The position numbers were made by a program, and so were the translations under genes. Source: Thermoflexales bacterium (lineage in GTDB: Bacteria > Chloroflexota > Anaerolineae > B4-G1 > DUEL01). Taken from it: a stretch of 42,390 nt of DNA. The stretch is taken from the NCBI GenBank assembly GCA_014360895.1, contig JACIWQ010000015.1, forward strand, positions 1 to 42,390, given 5' to 3'. Shown piece by piece: positions 13,985 to 21,139 of this stretch. A model generated the notes under the pieces. That model was not told the origin of the DNA, made no database searches, and saw nothing but the letters and a program-made list of their open reading frames with translations. Position 1 is the stretch's first letter. Every line of letters begins with the position of its first letter.

Positions 13985-16606
13985 TTACCCGTCTGCCAGA
14001 ACCGCCATCTCCGGGTCCACCACGACCTTTCGGTACACCTCGGCAGGAGAACGCAGTGCGCCGCCGACGGTCAGCAGGTCCGCGATGGAAATCCCAAAGA
14101 GCCGCTCGTTCTCCCGCAGGTACGGCTCTATCAGGTGCCAATCCTCCTCCGTGAAGGGAGCAAAAACCCCGCCGTTGAGTTGATCCTCATCCACCACCCG
14201 GTACGGGTCCCGCAGGAAAATCGCCCCACCGGTGGCCAGGGAGAAGAGATTGCCGCCGGGATAGGGAGATGGCAGGTCCTCCAGGCGGCCGTCGGGGCTG
14301 AAGGTGACCCCGTTCAGGACGACGAAGCCCCCGCCCTGGCGCGGGTCGCCCGCCATAAAGGACTCCGCCAGATAATCCAGACAGGTGCCGTTGATGACCA
14401 CCCGGGGCCGGCCCACCCCGTTGATCAGCGGACGCCCGGCGGCGGAACCCAGGACGTAAACCTCCCCGCCCTTCGCCCCATAAAGGAACGTCTGCCCGAC
14501 ATCACCGTAGACCACCAGTTTGCCGTCTTTGAGAATCTGCCCCAACTGATCCTGCCCGTCGCCGTGAAGGTAGACTTCCGCCCCGTCCAGACCGGACGCG
14601 GCGTAGTCTCCCACGTCGCCGTAGAGGTCTATACGGACGCCGCAGGTATTCGGACCCAGTCCACAAGCCGCGAAGCGGCCTCCCCGCCAGTTATAGGCAA
14701 CGATGTGCCGCCATCCCATCCGGTAGGCCCGGACCATCCACCGAGCTGCGCTCTCCTCTCCCTCCGGCGGGAAGCCCAGGGTATCCAGAATCAGAGCGGC
14801 ATGCGGAGACGGCGCGGGGCCCAGGATATGCCGGGTCTCCCAGGTGAGCCGGAACAGCATGCCGCCCTCTACTGCCCTGGAACCATCGCCGGGCACGGCG
14901 AAGAGCGCCCCCAGCGTCTCATCCACCAGCGTCAGGAAAGACGCGCGCCTTTTATCGCCCAGATCGGTCCGGCGGTCCCGCAGCAGGGTCAGGACCTCGC
15001 GGGCGAAGTGCCACTCCGCCAGGCCCTGGCGACCCAGATCAGCCAGCCAGCGCAGCCCCCAGGCCAGGTCGTCCCAATGATTGGTTGCCAGCAAGGGCCG
15101 GAGCTCCTCCCAGGCCGGGAGTGGGCCGCCGTTATCCAGCGCCCGCAACAGAACCCCCTCCCATTCGCGCCGAAACTCCTCTCGGGCCCGCGCGGGGTTC
15201 AAAACCGCCGGGGCATGCCGGTATCCCGATGCCAGCTGGACCTCCTTCCCGAACTTGTCGGTACAGGTCAGACGAGCGGGTCCGGCGGGCGTCGGTATGA
15301 CCACAAAGCGGAAGGCTCCCCCGTCGGTGTGAGAGCCTCCCCGCGCCACCCAGTAATGGTCCGCCAGCGGCCTGAACCGTGGATCCTCCGCCGCCAAGGA
15401 ACGCAAACAGGCGTTGATCGCCTGGCGCTCCGACGCGATCAACCCCATCTGTACCCTCTCCCCATCCACCTCGTTCTCAAAGAGCGCGAAGACCTGAGGC
15501 CGGAGCATACTGGTATCGGTGATGCCCAGCAATTCGTACCGGTCATCTCTGGAGCGGGCCACAATGAAGAACCAGGGCCCGTCCGGCGACGCGTGCAGGT
15601 GCGTCCGTTGGACAATGCGATACAGTTCCCGTCTCTCCGGCGGTAGCATCTGGAAGTCGTGCTCCGTGGTGGGCGCGATGGCCTCCAGCGTCACCTCCAG
15701 TGGATAACCATACACCCGGTCCATCAGGTCAAAGAGTTGGACGCCGATTTCGGTGTCGGTCAGGAAGAGTTGGCCGACGCCTCGCTGGCGCAGGTACTCA
15801 CAGACCGCGTGGTAATTGGCGAAGTCGCCATTGTGGACCAGGGCCTCGTGCAGGCCGATGAACGGGTGAGCTCCGCCAGGGTGCCAGACGCGCCCCTTAG
15901 TCGGATACCGCTGGTGACCGATCCAGACATGAGCCACCTGGTCCTCCAGGCCATAATACTGAATGACCTGTTCAGCATAGCCGACGATTTTGAGAACCGA
16001 AAGGTTGTGCCCGTGAGAAAGGACGAAGGCCCGCTTCTCCCCCAGGCTGGCGTAGAAACAGACGTTCAGGCGATAGGAGTTCTGGTAGACGAACTCATCC
16101 TCCACCGCGCGGGGCGGTAATCCTGCCAGCCCTTTTTCAGCGGCGAACCGCTCCAGAGCCTCCGGCCGGGCCCGGACGAAATACCGCCAGACGTCGGGCG
16201 GGCGCACCTCCAGGCCGACCTCGCGGTGGTCTGGCAGATGCGGCAACTCGTATGCGACGGCGACGGCAAAATGTGGGTAGATGAACTGCTCCTCTATCTC
16301 CGTTCGGGCCGAGGGGTCCAGCAGCGCGATCTGGAGCAGGTAATGGGTCCGCAGCGTTTCCTCGTCCACCCCGACCTGGGCCGGGCAGAGCCCGACCATG
16401 GCGATGCCGCCGCCTTTGCCGTTGCCCCGATTGTGCATTTGCTGCACCGCCGCCATCACATGCCGACCGGCGATGGGAATGTTGGCCGCCAGTCCCAGGA
16501 CGCCACAGCCTCCCTCGGCGGCCTCCCTGGAGCGTTGAGGGGCCGGTGCCAGCGCGACCAGCCCTTCCCGGGAACGGATGATGCGTTCGGCCCATGAATG
16601 GGTCAT
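13985..16606 (-). CDS. Class-II glutamine amidotransferase fused to glutamate-synthase GXGXG domain
   Basis: The 873-residue protein covers the N- and C-terminal parts of a glutamate-synthase large subunit. The nucleophile Cys34 sits in EGGCGVLGLAAN. It follows a 33-residue leader and is not exposed by simple Met removal, so the leader must be cleaved if the N-terminal nucleophile mechanism holds. MHNRGNGKGGGIA and GHQRYPTKGRVWHPGGAHPF are further amidotransferase motifs. The C-terminal third is the GXGXG beta-helix: YGDVGDYAASGLDGAEVYLHGDGQDQ and VYGDVGQTFLYGAKGGEVYVLG. It would hydrolyse glutamine and pass ammonia to the FMN subunit encoded 27 bp upstream. AAGGAGGAGCT precedes ATG 16606. 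This domain order differs from the one-chain GltB and from three-gene archaeal forms. Confidence 0.87.
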   Translation of the reverse strand: MTHSWAERIIRSREGLVALAPAPQRSREAAEGGCGVLGLAANIPIAGRHVMAAVQQMHNRGNGKGGGIAMVGLCPAQVGVDEETLRTHYLLQIALLDPSARTEIEEQFIYPHFAVAVAYELPHLPDHREVGLEVRPPDVWRYFVRARPEALERFAAEKGLAGLPPRAVEDEFVYQNSYRLNVCFYASLGEKRAFVLSHGHNLSVLKIVGYAEQVIQYYGLEDQVAHVWIGHQRYPTKGRVWHPGGAHPFIGLHEALVHNGDFANYHAVCEYLRQRGVGQLFLTDTEIGVQLFDLMDRVYGYPLEVTLEAIAPTTEHDFQMLPPERRELYRIVQRTHLHASPDGPWFFIVARSRDDRYELLGITDTSMLRPQVFALFENEVDGERVQMGLIASERQAINACLRSLAAEDPRFRPLADHYWVARGGSHTDGGAFRFVVIPTPAGPARLTCTDKFGKEVQLASGYRHAPAVLNPARAREEFRREWEGVLLRALDNGGPLPAWEELRPLLATNHWDDLAWGLRWLADLGRQGLAEWHFAREVLTLLRDRRTDLGDKRRASFLTLVDETLGALFAVPGDGSRAVEGGMLFRLTWETRHILGPAPSPHAALILDTLGFPPEGEESAARWMVRAYRMGWRHIVAYNWRGGRFAACGLGPNTCGVRIDLYGDVGDYAASGLDGAEVYLHGDGQDQLGQILKDGKLVVYGDVGQTFLYGAKGGEVYVLGSAAGRPLINGVGRPRVVINGTCLDYLAESFMAGDPRQGGGFVVLNGVTFSPDGRLEDLPSPYPGGNLFSLATGGAIFLRDPYRVVDEDQLNGGVFAPFTEEDWHLIEPYLRENERLFGISIADLLTVGGALRSPAEVYRKVVVDPEMAVLADG

Positions 16607-16633: not shown

Positions 16634-19084
16634 TCACTCCAGATATACCAGCAGGTCCGACCTCCCCCGCAGTTCGCGGATAGATTTCATCCCCAGTGTC
16701 CGGAGAATCCCCGCCAGTTGCCAGAGCCACGCCGTATAGAGGTTGACGATGCGCCGGAAGGCCTCGTCGGGGTCAATCATCCGGGCGCGCTCCGGGTCCG
16801 TCGTGGTAATGCCGAAGGGACACCCCAATCCCTTCTCGCACTGGGCCACCCGGACGCAGCCCAGGGCCACCAGTTCCGCCGTCCCAATGACAGCCCCGTC
16901 CGCCCCCAGCGCGATGATTTTGGCCACGTCCCAGACCGTGCGGATGCCGCCGGACGCCATCAGCACCACCTGGTCGCGGATCCCTTCTTCCCGCAGGAAC
17001 CGATGGACTTTGGGCACGGCGTACTCAATGGGCATGGCGATGCTCTTCTTGGCGATCTCCGGCGCTGCCCCGGTACCCCCGTAAGCCCCGTCCAGATGGA
17101 CAATGTGGGCCCCGGCGTAGTAGATACCCACTGCCACCATGTCCACGTCGGTGGGCGTGGAGACCTTCACCGAGATGAGAGCTCGTTCGTTGACCTGCTT
17201 CAGCCAGTCCACGTGTTTCTTGTGGTCCTCCACCGAGTACACGCTGTGGAACGGGCAGGGAGAGAAGAGGGAGGTGCCGGGCACCGCCTCGCGGAGGCGG
17301 GCCACGCTCCCGGTGTTCTTGTTGCCCAACAGGTGACCACCGAGCCCCGGTTTGGCCCCCTGAGCGTACTTGATCTCCACCACCCGGGCCCGCTGGATCG
17401 TCTCCTCCCGGACGCCGAAGAGGCCTGTGGCCACCTGAGTGATGATGTGGTCAGCATAGGGTACCAGTTCCTCCGGGTATCCCCCCTCGCCGGTGGAAGT
17501 CAGCGTGTTCAGCGCTCGGGCCGCCCGTGCCCGGGCCAGCATCACCGGGAGGCTGACGGATCCGTAGGACATCCCCGCCCCATACCAGGGGACCGAAATA
17601 ACCACCTGAGGTTGTCCATCCTCCCGCTGGTTGAGGGAAAGGGAAAGGTCAAACTCCGCAGGGTCCGCCAGAGGTGGGTGGGCCGGGTCCATCTCCAGTT
17701 CAAAGGCGAAGGCCAGCCGGTCAAAGCCCCCGTCGGAGGTGCCGAACCGGTACTCCCACTCCACGTCTACCGGCAGCTGACCGGTGCGCGCCTGCGACTG
17801 GGTCGTCAGGAGCAGGGATTGCGGCCATCGGAAATCACCCTCTCCGCCGGTCTGGACTTTCAGCATCGGCAGCGCGGAGAGCAGTCGGCTTCCGCCCAGG
17901 ACCTCCCGGAAGGCGGCCTCTTCGGTCCTGTGCCAGATCGTCCGGCCGGTCTCACCTCGGAGGCGGCGAACTTCCCGCATCCCCATCGCGCCCAGGGCCT
18001 CCAGTATCTGGTCCCGCCAGGCGTTCATCAGATTCATCACCCGCTGCGCGCCCCATTCCGGCGGGATCTCTTCGCTCTCCACCGGGCACCGGCCCCGGTC
18101 GGCCCAAAGGGCACACCCCCAGGCTACCAGCAGGATGTCATCCACGGCCACCAGGTCAGCCCCGCAGGCGATGGACTTCACCACGTGCTCAGCGGCGGCA
18201 ATGCCTCCGGAGACGATCAACGTCACTCGGTCCCGCAGGGCCGCCCGGACCAGGGCCTGATGGACCTCCAGCAGGGCGTCCGGGATCGGACGCCCTGCCG
18301 TATCCCGCCCCATCTCATCGGCGCGGAGGTGGACCACTGCCGCCCCCCGGCGGACCGCGTCCAGAGTTGCCTCCGCCGCCTGGGGGCCCAGGGCAATCCG
18401 CAGCCCGACAACAGCTCCCGGAATCCGGGGGACGTCGGGGTGGCCGTCGGCCTCCAATTCTATGTATGGGGGTGACCAGGGGAGCGGTCCCGCTCCGCTC
18501 TCCCTCACGACAGCGCCCAGAGACGACGTGAAGGGCTCCAGGTCGGCATCGTAATCGGTCGGAGCGATAAGCGCCAGTGTCCCCAGCCGCCGCGCGGCCA
18601 GCGCCAGCGCGCGGAGCGCGCCGCGACCGGGGAGAGGGATGGGCAAGGGGTTGAAAACCACGGGGATGGATAAGCTGAGGCTGGGGGGAAGAGAAGTCAG
18701 CAGATTCCCGTCCGGTCCGAACCGCAAGTAGTCCGGGCGGGCCCCCAGGTCTACTTGAGTGGAGATGTACTCCCGTCCGTGGATGCCGTCCCGCGTAGGT
18801 CGGACGATTTCCGACATGTCCAGCCAGATTCCGTCAAAGCTTTCACCGGCGAATTTGCCGCCATATCCGGCGCCAGAGATGGGGATACGGCCCGTCTCGG
18901 CCTGGTACCAGGTCTGGGTGATGATTTCGGCGGTCCAGTGCTCGTCGCCCCGATGGAGGCGCCCCTCAAAAACGGGATGGCCGTAGTGGATGTACCGGTC
19001 CCCTTCGGCGATAGCGAAGGCAGCTGGATACCCTCGCGCGGGTGGGGGGGCCGGACGGACGGGGATATGGTAGCAGCTGCTCAT
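16634..19084 (-). CDS. FMN-dependent glutamate-synthase subunit with a duplicated barrel
   Basis: The 816-residue protein has a C-terminal half (about 430-816) that is a canonical FMN glutamate-synthase barrel: [60 protein letters not shown]. The [3Fe-4S] cysteines are Cys743, Cys749 and Cys754 (C-x5-C-x4-C). The N-terminal half repeats part of the same fold: [25 protein letters not shown] aligns with [24 protein letters not shown], and [11 protein letters not shown] aligns with [11 protein letters not shown]. The cluster cysteines there are incomplete, so this half is probably a non-catalytic copy. The start ATG 19084 overlaps the nadE stop as ATGA, with GAGGAGGGAAC upstream, implying translational coupling. 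No NAD(P)H-oxidising GltD partner is visible. Confidence 0.87.
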
Positions 19085-20814
19085 GGCGGTTCCCTCCTCA
19101 GATACCGGTTGGTGATGGGCAGGCGCCAGTCCTTCCCGAAGGCGCGCGGCGTGATTTTCACCCCCGGCGGACTCTGGCGGCGCTTGTACTCGCTCCGGTC
19201 CACCATCCGAATAACTCTCCGGACCGTTTCTTCATCAAACCCGCGCCTGACAATTTCCTGGAGGTCACAACTCTCCTCCACGTAGGCCTGGACGATGGGG
19301 TCCAGAATCTCGTAGGGTGGGAGCGAGTCGGTATCCCGCTGGTCGGGCCGCAGTTCGGCCGAGGGGGGCTTCTCCAGCACTCGCCGGGGGATCACGTCCC
19401 ACCCCGCGCGGGCGTTCCGATAGCGGGCTAATGCGTAGACCAGCGTCTTGGGGACATCCTTGATGACCGCAAAGCCGCCGGCCGTATCGCCGTAGAGGGT
19501 GGCGTATCCCACACTCGTCTCGCTCTTGTTGCCCGTGGTCAGCACCAGCCAGCCGAACTTGTTGGAGAGGGCCATCAGGATGGTTCCCCGGATGCGGGGC
19601 TGCAGGTTCTCCTCGGTCACGTCCGGCGCCCGCCCCTGGAAAATCGGGGCCAGAACATCCAGGAATCCCTGGAAAAGGGCGTCAATGGGGACGACCAGGA
19701 ATCGGATGCCCAGGTTGCGGGCCAGTTGCTCCGCATCTTCCAAGCTGTGAGGGGAGGAGTAGCGGGTGGGCATCGCCACGCCGACCACGTTATCGGGCCC
19801 CAGTGCGTCAGCGGCGATGGTTGCGGTGAGGGAGGAGTCTATCCCTCCGGAGAGGCCGATGACGGCTTCCCGGAAGCCGTTCTTGTGGACGTAGTCCCGC
19901 GTCCCCAGCACCAGTGCCTGGTAGACCTCGGCAAGCTCCTCCAGGGGCGGGACATGAGGGGGTGAGAGGGGCTTCCGCTCGGGGACGGGCAGTTCCGACA
20001 GCGCGATCCGGTGGACCCCCTCTCCCTCTGACAGGTGGGCTTTCCGCCAGCGGGGATCCCGGAGTCGCTGCCGGAAGACCCCGCGGACGTCCAGGTCAGC
20101 CACCACCAGGTCCTCCTCAAAGAGCTTACCCCGGGCAATCACTTCTCCCTGAGGTCCGCAGATAAAGCTCTGGCCGTCAAAGACCAGTTCATCCTGCCCG
20201 CCCACCAGGTTGCAATAGGCGACAAGGGCGGTCATATCGGCCGCGCGGGTAGCCAGCATTCGCTCCCGTGCCCGCCCCTTCCCCATATGGTACGGCGAGG
20301 CGGAGATGTTAATAAGGACCTCCGCTCCGGCCTGGAACGCCTGAGCTTCTGGCGGCCCCCCAGGGTACCAGATGTCTTCACAGATGCTGACACCCACCGT
20401 GATGCCGTTCCGGACGAACACGACGTTCTCCCGCCCGGCCCGGAAGTAGCGCTCCTCGTCAAAGACGCCGTAGTTGGGCAGGTACTGCTTGAAGTAGAGG
20501 CCAGCTAGACGGCCGTCGTGGAAAACCGCCGCCGCGTTGTAGAGGTCTCCGACAGCGTAGACGCACCCGACGATGGCCGTCAGCCCATAAGTGGCGGAAG
20601 CGAGGGAGTGCAGTGAATCCATCGCGGCCTCAACGAAATCGGGCTTGAGCAGAAGGTCTTCAGGAGGGTAACCGGTGACGGCCATCTCGGGGAACACCAC
20701 GATGTCGGCCCCGACCGCTCGCGCCCGCTCCATCCAGACCCGGATGCGCTCCCGGTTGCCATCCAGGTCCCCAACGGTCACATTGATTTGAGCCAGAGCC
20801 AGTCGCAGGTCCAT
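19081..20814 (-). CDS. nadE: Glutamine-hydrolysing NAD+ synthetase
   Basis: The 577-residue enzyme catalyses the last step of NAD synthesis: deamido-NAD + ATP + glutamine gives NAD. The N-terminal nitrilase-type glutaminase has catalytic Glu43 ([14 protein letters not shown]), a Lys near [11 protein letters not shown] and the nucleophile Cys in SICEDIW. The C-terminal synthetase begins near residue 280 with [20 protein letters not shown] (ATP pyrophosphatase loop), followed by [22 protein letters not shown] 20814 is chosen because GGGGGAGGTATCCT precedes it and homology starts at [12 protein letters not shown]. It is first in an operon with two glutamate-synthase-type genes. All three use glutamine nitrogen, which links NAD and glutamate supply. 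A leader attenuator lies directly upstream. Confidence 0.95.
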
Positions 20815-20830
20815 AGGATACCTCCCCCGT

Positions 20831-20868
20831 ATAAAAAGCAGGCCGCCCTTTATAAAAGGGCGGCCTGC
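20831..20868 (-). terminator. Intrinsic terminator in the nadE leader
   Basis: The arms at 20838-20851 and 20855-20868 form a 14-bp stem (GCAGGCCGCCCTTT type) with a 3-base loop. In the minus-strand RNA the hairpin is followed directly by UUUUUAU. It lies after the leader peptide stop and 17-22 bp before the nadE start codon, so it would stop transcription into the operon unless disrupted. Confidence 0.85.
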
Positions 20869-20889
20869 CAAAAACCAGTTCGTCACGCG

Positions 20890-20973
20890 CTACAGCGGCG
20901 GCTGCCGCCCTTCGGGCGGGCCATACCAGCGATTATTGTTATTGGTATGAGATACAGCCACCGCAAGACGCAT
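20890..20973 (-). CDS. 27-residue leader peptide with four consecutive Asn codons
   Basis: A 27-codon reading frame starts at ATG 20973 with GGAGGA four bases upstream and ends at TAG (20890-20892). The peptide contains HTNNNNRWY at residues 9-17; the Asn codons AAT AAC AAT AAT lie at 20932-20943. The last ten codons fold into a hairpin in RNA. The frame begins about 15 nt after a predicted transcription start and ends 22 bp before an intrinsic terminator that precedes nadE. This is the layout of amino-acid attenuation leaders such as trpL or hisL. The residue sensed could be Asn, or Arg/Trp/Tyr just after it. Function is inferred; the layout is read directly. Confidence 0.72.
   Translation of the reverse strand: MRLAVAVSHTNNNNRWYGPPEGRQPPL
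20904..20919 (-). promoter_or_regulatory. Candidate attenuator segments 1 and 2
   Basis: In the minus-strand RNA, CCGCCC (20914-20919) can pair with GGGCGG (20905-20910) as a 6-bp hairpin with a GAA loop. The second segment, GGGCGGC (20904-20910), is also complementary over 7 bp to GCCGCCC in the 5' arm of the terminator (20858-20864), with a further 3 bp GCC/GGC possible across a small internal loop. These are mutually exclusive folds, as needed for antitermination. Energies were not computed. Confidence 0.55.
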
Positions 20974-20994
20974 TGCGTCCTCCAACGGGAGTTG

Positions 20995-21022
20995 ATTATA
21001 GCACAGATTAGGGAAAAGACAA
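20995..21022 (-). promoter_or_regulatory. Promoter of the nadE-glutamate synthase operon
   Basis: On the minus strand, TTGTCT (21017-21022), a 16-bp spacer and a perfect TATAAT (20995-21000). The predicted transcript starts near 20988, about 15 nt before the leader peptide start. Confidence 0.75.
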
Positions 21023-21040: not shown

Positions 21041-21070
21041 AGTAGGGCAACTGCTCGCAGTTGCCCTACT
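21041..21070. repeat. 14-bp-arm palindrome AGTAGGGCAACTGC
   Basis: The arms at 21041-21054 and 21057-21070 are perfect inverted copies. No T-run follows on either side. It lies between the divergent nadE and polA promoters and resembles other intergenic palindromes in the window (for example 31998-32029). Confidence 0.75.
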
Positions 21071-21104
21071 CTGGGCCGCGGGGGCGGCGGCGAACCCATC
21101 CTTG

Positions 21105-21139
21105 AAGGTGACAGTCACCTTCAAGGTGACTGTCACCTT
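21105..21139. repeat. Paired palindromes AAGGTGACAGTCACCTT
   Basis: Two 17-bp palindromes (21105-21121 and 21123-21139) are separated by one base. The second is the exact reverse complement of the first. They end 5 bp before the -35 box of polA, so they could be an operator. They could equally be a dispersed repeat. Confidence 0.8.

Follow-up and report, generated by a model that had tools for sequence, protein, structure and literature searches.

The minus strand of the DNA analysed here (the window, 42,390 nt of a Thermoflexales bacterium contig) carries a short open reading frame and a terminator between a promoter and nadE, which raises the question of whether translation of this frame decides the transcription of the downstream operon, and if so which amino acid is read. 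Leader-peptide attenuation is a textbook mechanism known for a limited set of amino acids, and to our knowledge it has hardly been described in Chloroflexota. The original prediction, which was made from the window alone, proposed trp/his-type logic at this locus and left undecided whether Asn or Trp/Tyr is the sensed residue. Judging from comparative sequence analysis, the locus is in all likelihood a classical ribosome-mediated attenuator that senses Asn-tRNA before the nadE-glutamate synthase operon, and a paralogue of Asp/Asn leaders found before aspS in Anaerolineae.

The anatomy of the leader (20831-21022) largely agrees with what had been proposed (Table 1). The promoter, ribosome-binding site, 27-codon peptide and NNNN run followed by RWY were all located as described; the run lies within AATAACAATAAT, in which NNNN (20943-20932) is followed by CGC TGG TAT. 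In our scan the promoter is one of two promoter-like sites in 700 bp, against an expectation of 0.3, and extended -10 boxes occur at the equivalent place in other leaders. The predicted 6-bp leader hairpin is present as CCGCCC-GAA-GGGCGG (20919-20905), although it occupies codons 19-23 of the frame rather than its very last codons, and the terminator (20869-20837), which had been put at 14 bp, has 15 pairs when one G-U is counted and is rated a good terminator. Its U-run of five (20837-20833) lies close before the nadE start codon as anticipated, 18 nt upstream of the ATG (20814-20812), and the complementarity between GGGCGGC and the GCCGCCC of the terminator 5' arm, on which the proposed antiterminator depends, was likewise confirmed. 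The leader RNA folds with -85.1 kcal/mol compared with -62.4 +/- 4.3 kcal/mol in dinucleotide shuffles (z -5.3), and at full length it adopts a three-way junction with two additional pairings, GGTGGCTG near the start of the frame being able to pair with CAGCCGCC and, around the Asn codons, CATACCA with TGGTATG. The sequence thus holds a predicted translated frame between promoter and nadE, a conserved codon run, and a terminator opposed to an antiterminator.

Table 1 Features of the nadE leader and of the operon downstream
Feature	Position	Strand	Basis or remark
Promoter TTGTCT-N16-TATAAT, TG before the -10 box	20995..21022 (TTGTCT 21022-21017; TATAAT 21000-20995)	-	Sequence reading and promoter scan
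Leader peptide ribosome-binding site GGAGGA	20978..20983	-	Retained in genus leaders
Leader ORF (ATG...TAG), 27 codons + TAG, MRLAVAVSHTNNNNRWYGPPEGRQPPL	20890..20973	-	Last 18 residues the same in G005
Sensor codons AAT AAC AAT AAT (NNNN)	20932..20943	-	Kept in G005; Asp/Asn runs in aspS leaders
Segment 1, CCGCCC; partner is segment 2	20914..20919	-	Invariant in nine genus leaders
Segment 2, GGGCGGC; partner is segment 1, or segment 3 as antiterminator	20904..20910	-	
Segment 3, terminator 5' arm; GCCGCCC (20864-20858) able to pair with segment 2	20855..20869	-	
Segment 4, terminator 3' arm and U-run	20833..20851	-	
nadE, glutamine-dependent NAD synthetase	19084..20814	-	NF010588, 748 bits; PF00795 and PF02540
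Glutamate-synthase-type FMN domain protein	16634..19084	-	PF01645, 363 bits
Glutamate-synthase-type glutaminase/GXGXG protein	13985..16606	-	PF01493; PF13522 slightly below its cut-off

We then asked how far the leader is shared. nadE and the glutamate-synthase gene co-occur in two of seven genomes of the genus, that of the window and a second genome (G005), and both carry the leader, the nadE version of which is known from these two genomes. Their last 18 codons (TNNNNRWYGPPEGRQPPL) differ by three bases, all at synonymous third positions; it is in the first codons and the spacer that they have diverged. The Asn codons are kept in this relative. No such Asp/Asn (Asx) frame lies upstream of nadE in other genera. 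A degenerate search for NNNRWYG in 396 genomes of the class returned the two nadE leaders and 12 other matches, none of them leader-like, and scanning GTDB genomes for exact NNRWYGP matches returned 23 motif stretches, of which one (L065) is the leader of G005 and the remaining 22 are in other phyla.

A DNA search of the order revealed a homologous second leader in all seven genus genomes, each time before aspS (for example MYRPIVVDNNRRPGPPEGR, MVRPIIVDNNRWPGPPEGRQPSLPRG and MVRPMVVDHNNRWPGPPQGRQPWLPRG), with the residues DNNRRPGPP or DNNRWPGPP. A glutamine-synthetase gene (glnA) follows aspS in the five genus genomes with enough flanking DNA, and also in G010, G021 and G033. More divergent aspS leaders were found elsewhere in the order's families f1 and f2, with the Asx runs DDNDN (G007, G012), NDD (G010), DDD (G011), DNN (G021), NCNDND (G015), DNNND (G033), NNDTN (G029) and DYDDN (G031); the weakest, in G017, has HHN alone. 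In G023 the run is NNNDN and is followed by an additional AspRS/AsnRS-like gene (L199, contig 476), which lies between the Asx leader and aspS. No aspS leader was found in G013, in the f3 genomes examined or in G008, the contig of which begins just 173 nt upstream. A phylum-wide survey of 60 further aspS upstream regions added leaders in five of five members of a family of the class, f29 (for example MLKQIHFANNNNNDNDDPCIVGRSLAG), and in one f6 genome (RRNSDDDNDAFHRAGVA), with nothing convincing in the survey's other families; these six were chosen by their Asx run and are no independent proof of Asx enrichment. The layout is an Asp/Asn codon run, a G-rich arm matching the terminator 3' arm, and a terminator, the f6 case being known by its run alone. 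Together with the synonymous-only change in the last 18 codons of the second nadE leader, these homologues place the leader beyond chance. They also retain both the short peptide and a run of Asn or Asp/Asn codons, and changes among the leaders respect the reading frame while the terminator and antiterminator arms are kept; trp/his-type logic is thus supported, as far as sequence can tell. By sequence comparison the nadE leader is a paralogue within a family of Asp/Asn-codon leaders that usually stands before aspS in several Anaerolineae families, and our best reading is that part of one genus has recruited it to nadE-GOGAT.

Several searches delimit this family. A model built on the genus leaders recovered genus leaders only among 249 genomes of the class, and the weaker matches of a wider model away from aspS and nadE (in G000, G001, G002, G003, G004 and G027) proved to be ordinary terminators or coding DNA. 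The asnS genes of G000 and G002 have no such leader upstream. Downstream of segment 2, the genus aspS leaders contain a separate GGCAGC/GCTGCC hairpin; it showed one compensatory pair and no support beyond shuffles, and was set aside. In the f2 leaders (G021, G015, G029, G031 and G017) the frame starts about 6-12 nt after the -10 box without a clear ribosome-binding site, so translation here may start on an almost leaderless mRNA. In G021, the contig with aspS also bears a 6S RNA (74 bits, L154:56-232, minus strand).

The Asx codons behave as codons. Upstream of segment 2, the 16 leaders of the order contain 59 Asp and Asn codons in frame as opposed to 2 and 13 in the other frames, and dinucleotide shuffles gave 19.5 +/- 3.9 (maximum 36 in 2000); at least three Asx within four codons occur in 15 of the 16, where 0.17 would be expected. 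These counts should be read with the knowledge that some of the leaders were noticed through their Asx-containing frames, while G011, G017 and G033 were recognised by their arms and position. Across 23 leaders, moreover, the runs hold 116 RAY codons (AAT 41, AAC 35, GAT 23, GAC 17) and no RAR codon, that is, no Lys or Glu, which points to reading by tRNA(Asp) and tRNA(Asn), as a purine-rich loop would not distinguish the two. AsnRS was found at the family cut-off in 40 of 48 genomes of the order and GatB in 11 of 13 genomes tested, and asparagine synthetase B above cut-off is absent from 6 of 13, G005 included. Some of these genomes may accordingly make Asn-tRNA from Asp-tRNA, and this would account for the interchangeability of Asp and Asn codons. 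Queuosine sensing, which would involve His, Asn, Asp and Tyr codons and was considered because of H or Y in the runs of G006, G031 and G017, was dropped since the cases are too few.

The pairing arms are equally constrained. In the order leaders segment 2 is GGGCGG (GGGATGG in G015) and is identical to the terminator 3' arm, so that it can replace this arm in pairing with the 5' arm; the pairing of segment 2 with the 5' arm holds in 98.7% of cells. Among 13 leaders, the six inner pairs of the terminator are invariant while the outer pairs switch between G-C and A-U, with 7 double-changed cells compared with 3.3 in shuffles (5 of 500 shuffles were as high). Frozen inner and covarying outer pairs are what one would predict for an inner part that has two partners, and the antiterminator pairing, being invariant across the order, has no covariation of its own there. 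The f29 arms differ in sequence, with segment 2 as CGTTGGGCG and the 5' arm as CGCCCAACG or CGCCCGACG; here part of the segment 2 match falls in the terminator loop, and GGCGAA of segment 2 has a pairing partner in TTCGCC directly upstream of the run.

The last Asx codon lies 15-21 nt ahead of segment 2 in each of the 16 order leaders, and the stop codon 0-21 nt past that segment, a spacing by which a ribosome on the run would leave segment 2 free and an advancing ribosome would cover it. We examined this geometry with a static occlusion model (assumed footprints of 9-12 nt), in which all RNA behind the ribosome's front edge is removed codon by codon, the remainder is folded as far as the 5' terminator arm, and the pairing of segment 2 is scored. 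An early ribosome gives scores close to zero in most genus aspS leaders, and these rise to 0.6-1.0 at the second Asn codon, the exceptions being G004, which needs a 12-nt footprint, and G006, which is high throughout; the f29 leaders score about 0.9-1.0 along the run, and in all leaders modelled the score reaches zero within about six codons past the run. The nadE leader scores 0.5-1.0 over the Asn codons and 1.0 over R-W-Y-G, then drops to zero at the second Pro codon and stays there. The occlusion folding that had been proposed as a check therefore favours the antiterminator on the run and loses it a few codons later, but the nadE leader scores high without a nearby ribosome as well, which in the model would make full translation the cause of termination. 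Full-length equilibrium folding of the nadE leader yields the terminator, so the switch would depend on folding during transcription.

Alternative scenarios must be weighed against these data. One may postulate that the attenuator is the same but that the sensed residues are the Trp and Tyr, or the Arg, that follow the run, the Asn codons being bystanders. Segment 1 of the nadE leader begins 12 nt past the last Asn codon, slightly beyond the usual ribosome footprint, whereas a ribosome on W or Y fully covers segment 1 and leaves segment 2 free, in line with the original prediction that a Trp/Tyr stall covers segment 1 better than an Asn stall; Arg, moreover, comes after the run in every genus leader. 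Conservation does not extend to Trp and Tyr, however: R-R-P or R-W-P takes their place in the genus aspS leaders and the residues in other families are unrelated, whereas an Asx run is a general feature. Neither Trp, Tyr nor Arg has a link to aspS, glnA, nadE or GOGAT. We consider this scenario improbable. Because the paralogues dispense with Trp/Tyr, the choice that had been left undecided falls in favour of Asn, and the sensed residue is likely Asn at nadE and Asp together with Asn at aspS.

It is a little less probable still that the peptide is passive and that stalling comes from its Pro-Pro motifs (with EF-P dependence) or from the nascent chain, without uncharged tRNA. Polyproline slows ribosomes, and GPP is conserved in all genus leaders; the Pro-Pro codons are nonetheless segment 1 itself in the genus, other families lack them yet have both the Asx run and segment 2, and a passive frame would not retain in-frame Asx codons. 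A structured RNA, either a riboswitch or a protein-binding element, in which a three-way junction precedes the terminator and the frame is accidental, would account for the frozen arms and the junction fold of the full-length RNA. We give this slightly less credence again, given that the junction arms near the start of the frame and around the Asn codons are missing from the aspS leaders, that Rfam gives no match, and that the synonymous-only change and the occurrence of RAY without RAR point to codon reading. The least credible of these scenarios, a very remote one, is a plain, unregulated intrinsic terminator between promoter and gene: the terminator is good, but it would block its own gene, and it leaves aside that segment 2 repeats the terminator 3' arm at fixed spacing and that many leaders retain the Asx run.

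An attenuator that senses Asn-tRNA would work as follows. The ribosome would trail RNA polymerase through the leader; with Asn-tRNA charged it would pass PPEGR to the stop codon and cover segment 2, whereupon the terminator 5' arm would pair with the 3' arm and transcription would stop before nadE. With charged Asn-tRNA in short supply, the ribosome would pause on the four Asn codons with segment 2 outside it, and the free segment 2 would pair with GCCGCCC of the 5' arm, so that no terminator forms and the operon is transcribed. The spacing and the occlusion model are consistent with this geometry, with the qualification that the nadE antiterminator also forms without a ribosome. The Asn-rich decoy peptide thus very probably lets the bacterium switch on the nadE/glutamate-synthase genes when charged asparaginyl-tRNA is short. 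The link of the downstream gene to the sensed amino acid is clear for aspS and indirect for nadE-glutamate synthase. Low Asn-tRNA could signal that aspartate, amide nitrogen or glutamine is scarce, and expression would then rise, at this locus of NAD synthetase and glutamate synthase, and at the sister leaders of aspS, joined by glnA in several genomes. More tentatively, and with the odds in our view against it, Asn-tRNA charging might be a nitrogen signal in these Chloroflexota: through the paralogous leaders a single codon-reading sensor would govern glnA together with aspS, and glutamate synthase together with nadE, and glutamine would exert feedback by way of amide transfer, either to Asp-tRNA(Asn) or to asparagine.

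Known regulators resemble this system in part. T-box riboswitches, which include Asn and Asp types in Firmicutes, also control aminoacyl-tRNA synthetase genes by tRNA charging via antitermination, but they bind tRNA directly, whereas here a reading frame is read and the T-box model is unmatched. NAD-sensing riboswitches, of the nadA and pnuC types, likewise control genes of NAD metabolism, but this leader has its relatives before aspS rather than before NAD genes; Rfam models including T-box and NAD riboswitches left the leader unmatched. The closest likeness is to the trp, his, leu, ilv and phe attenuators of Proteobacteria and Actinobacteria, which share a short frame with a run of sensed codons, mutually exclusive antiterminator and terminator, and, clearly so for the aspS leaders, downstream genes for the same amino acid, including an aminoacyl-tRNA synthetase. 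The present leaders differ in their Asn or mixed Asp/Asn codons, in their targets (aspS, at times with glnA, and nadE-glutamate synthase) and in their occurrence in Chloroflexota. Attenuators of trp, trpS2 and leuS have been predicted (PMC1262725), and an RNA with a terminator upstream of Shewanella aspS has been predicted as a 'tRNA synthetase leader' (PMC2659441); the latter shares a terminator before aspS, and the parts of that paper available to us do not mention an Asp/Asn leader peptide. No earlier description of an Asp/Asn leader attenuator was found in the literature searched. The leaders provide clean comparative evidence for an Asp/Asn attenuator class in Chloroflexota, before an aminoacyl-tRNA synthetase gene and an unrelated second operon. 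They illustrate how a codon-reading switch can be recruited to new genes, and make testable both the interchangeable use of Asp and Asn codons and the idea of Asn-tRNA as a report of nitrogen status.

Other hairpins and leader-like elements were observed in passing. Within the window, the interval between polA and the nadE promoter (21060-21139) has two more near-perfect hairpins, GGTGACAGTCACCTTGAAGGTGACTGTCACC and AGTAGGGCAACTGCGAGCAGTTGCCCTACT. Upstream of gltS in G015 there is neither an Asx frame nor an Rfam match, and a strong terminator hairpin (AAGCCCTCTGG...CCAGAGGGCTTTTGT) stands between promoter and gene (L165:2940-3240, contig 104). Finally, in G017 (L206, contig 150, 2500-3151) a candidate branched-chain leader frame ending in LLGLLIALIIVVVVLLLGKSHGRLGWHP is followed by a terminator and then an acetolactate synthase-like gene, a candidate which hints that these bacteria may use leader attenuation widely.
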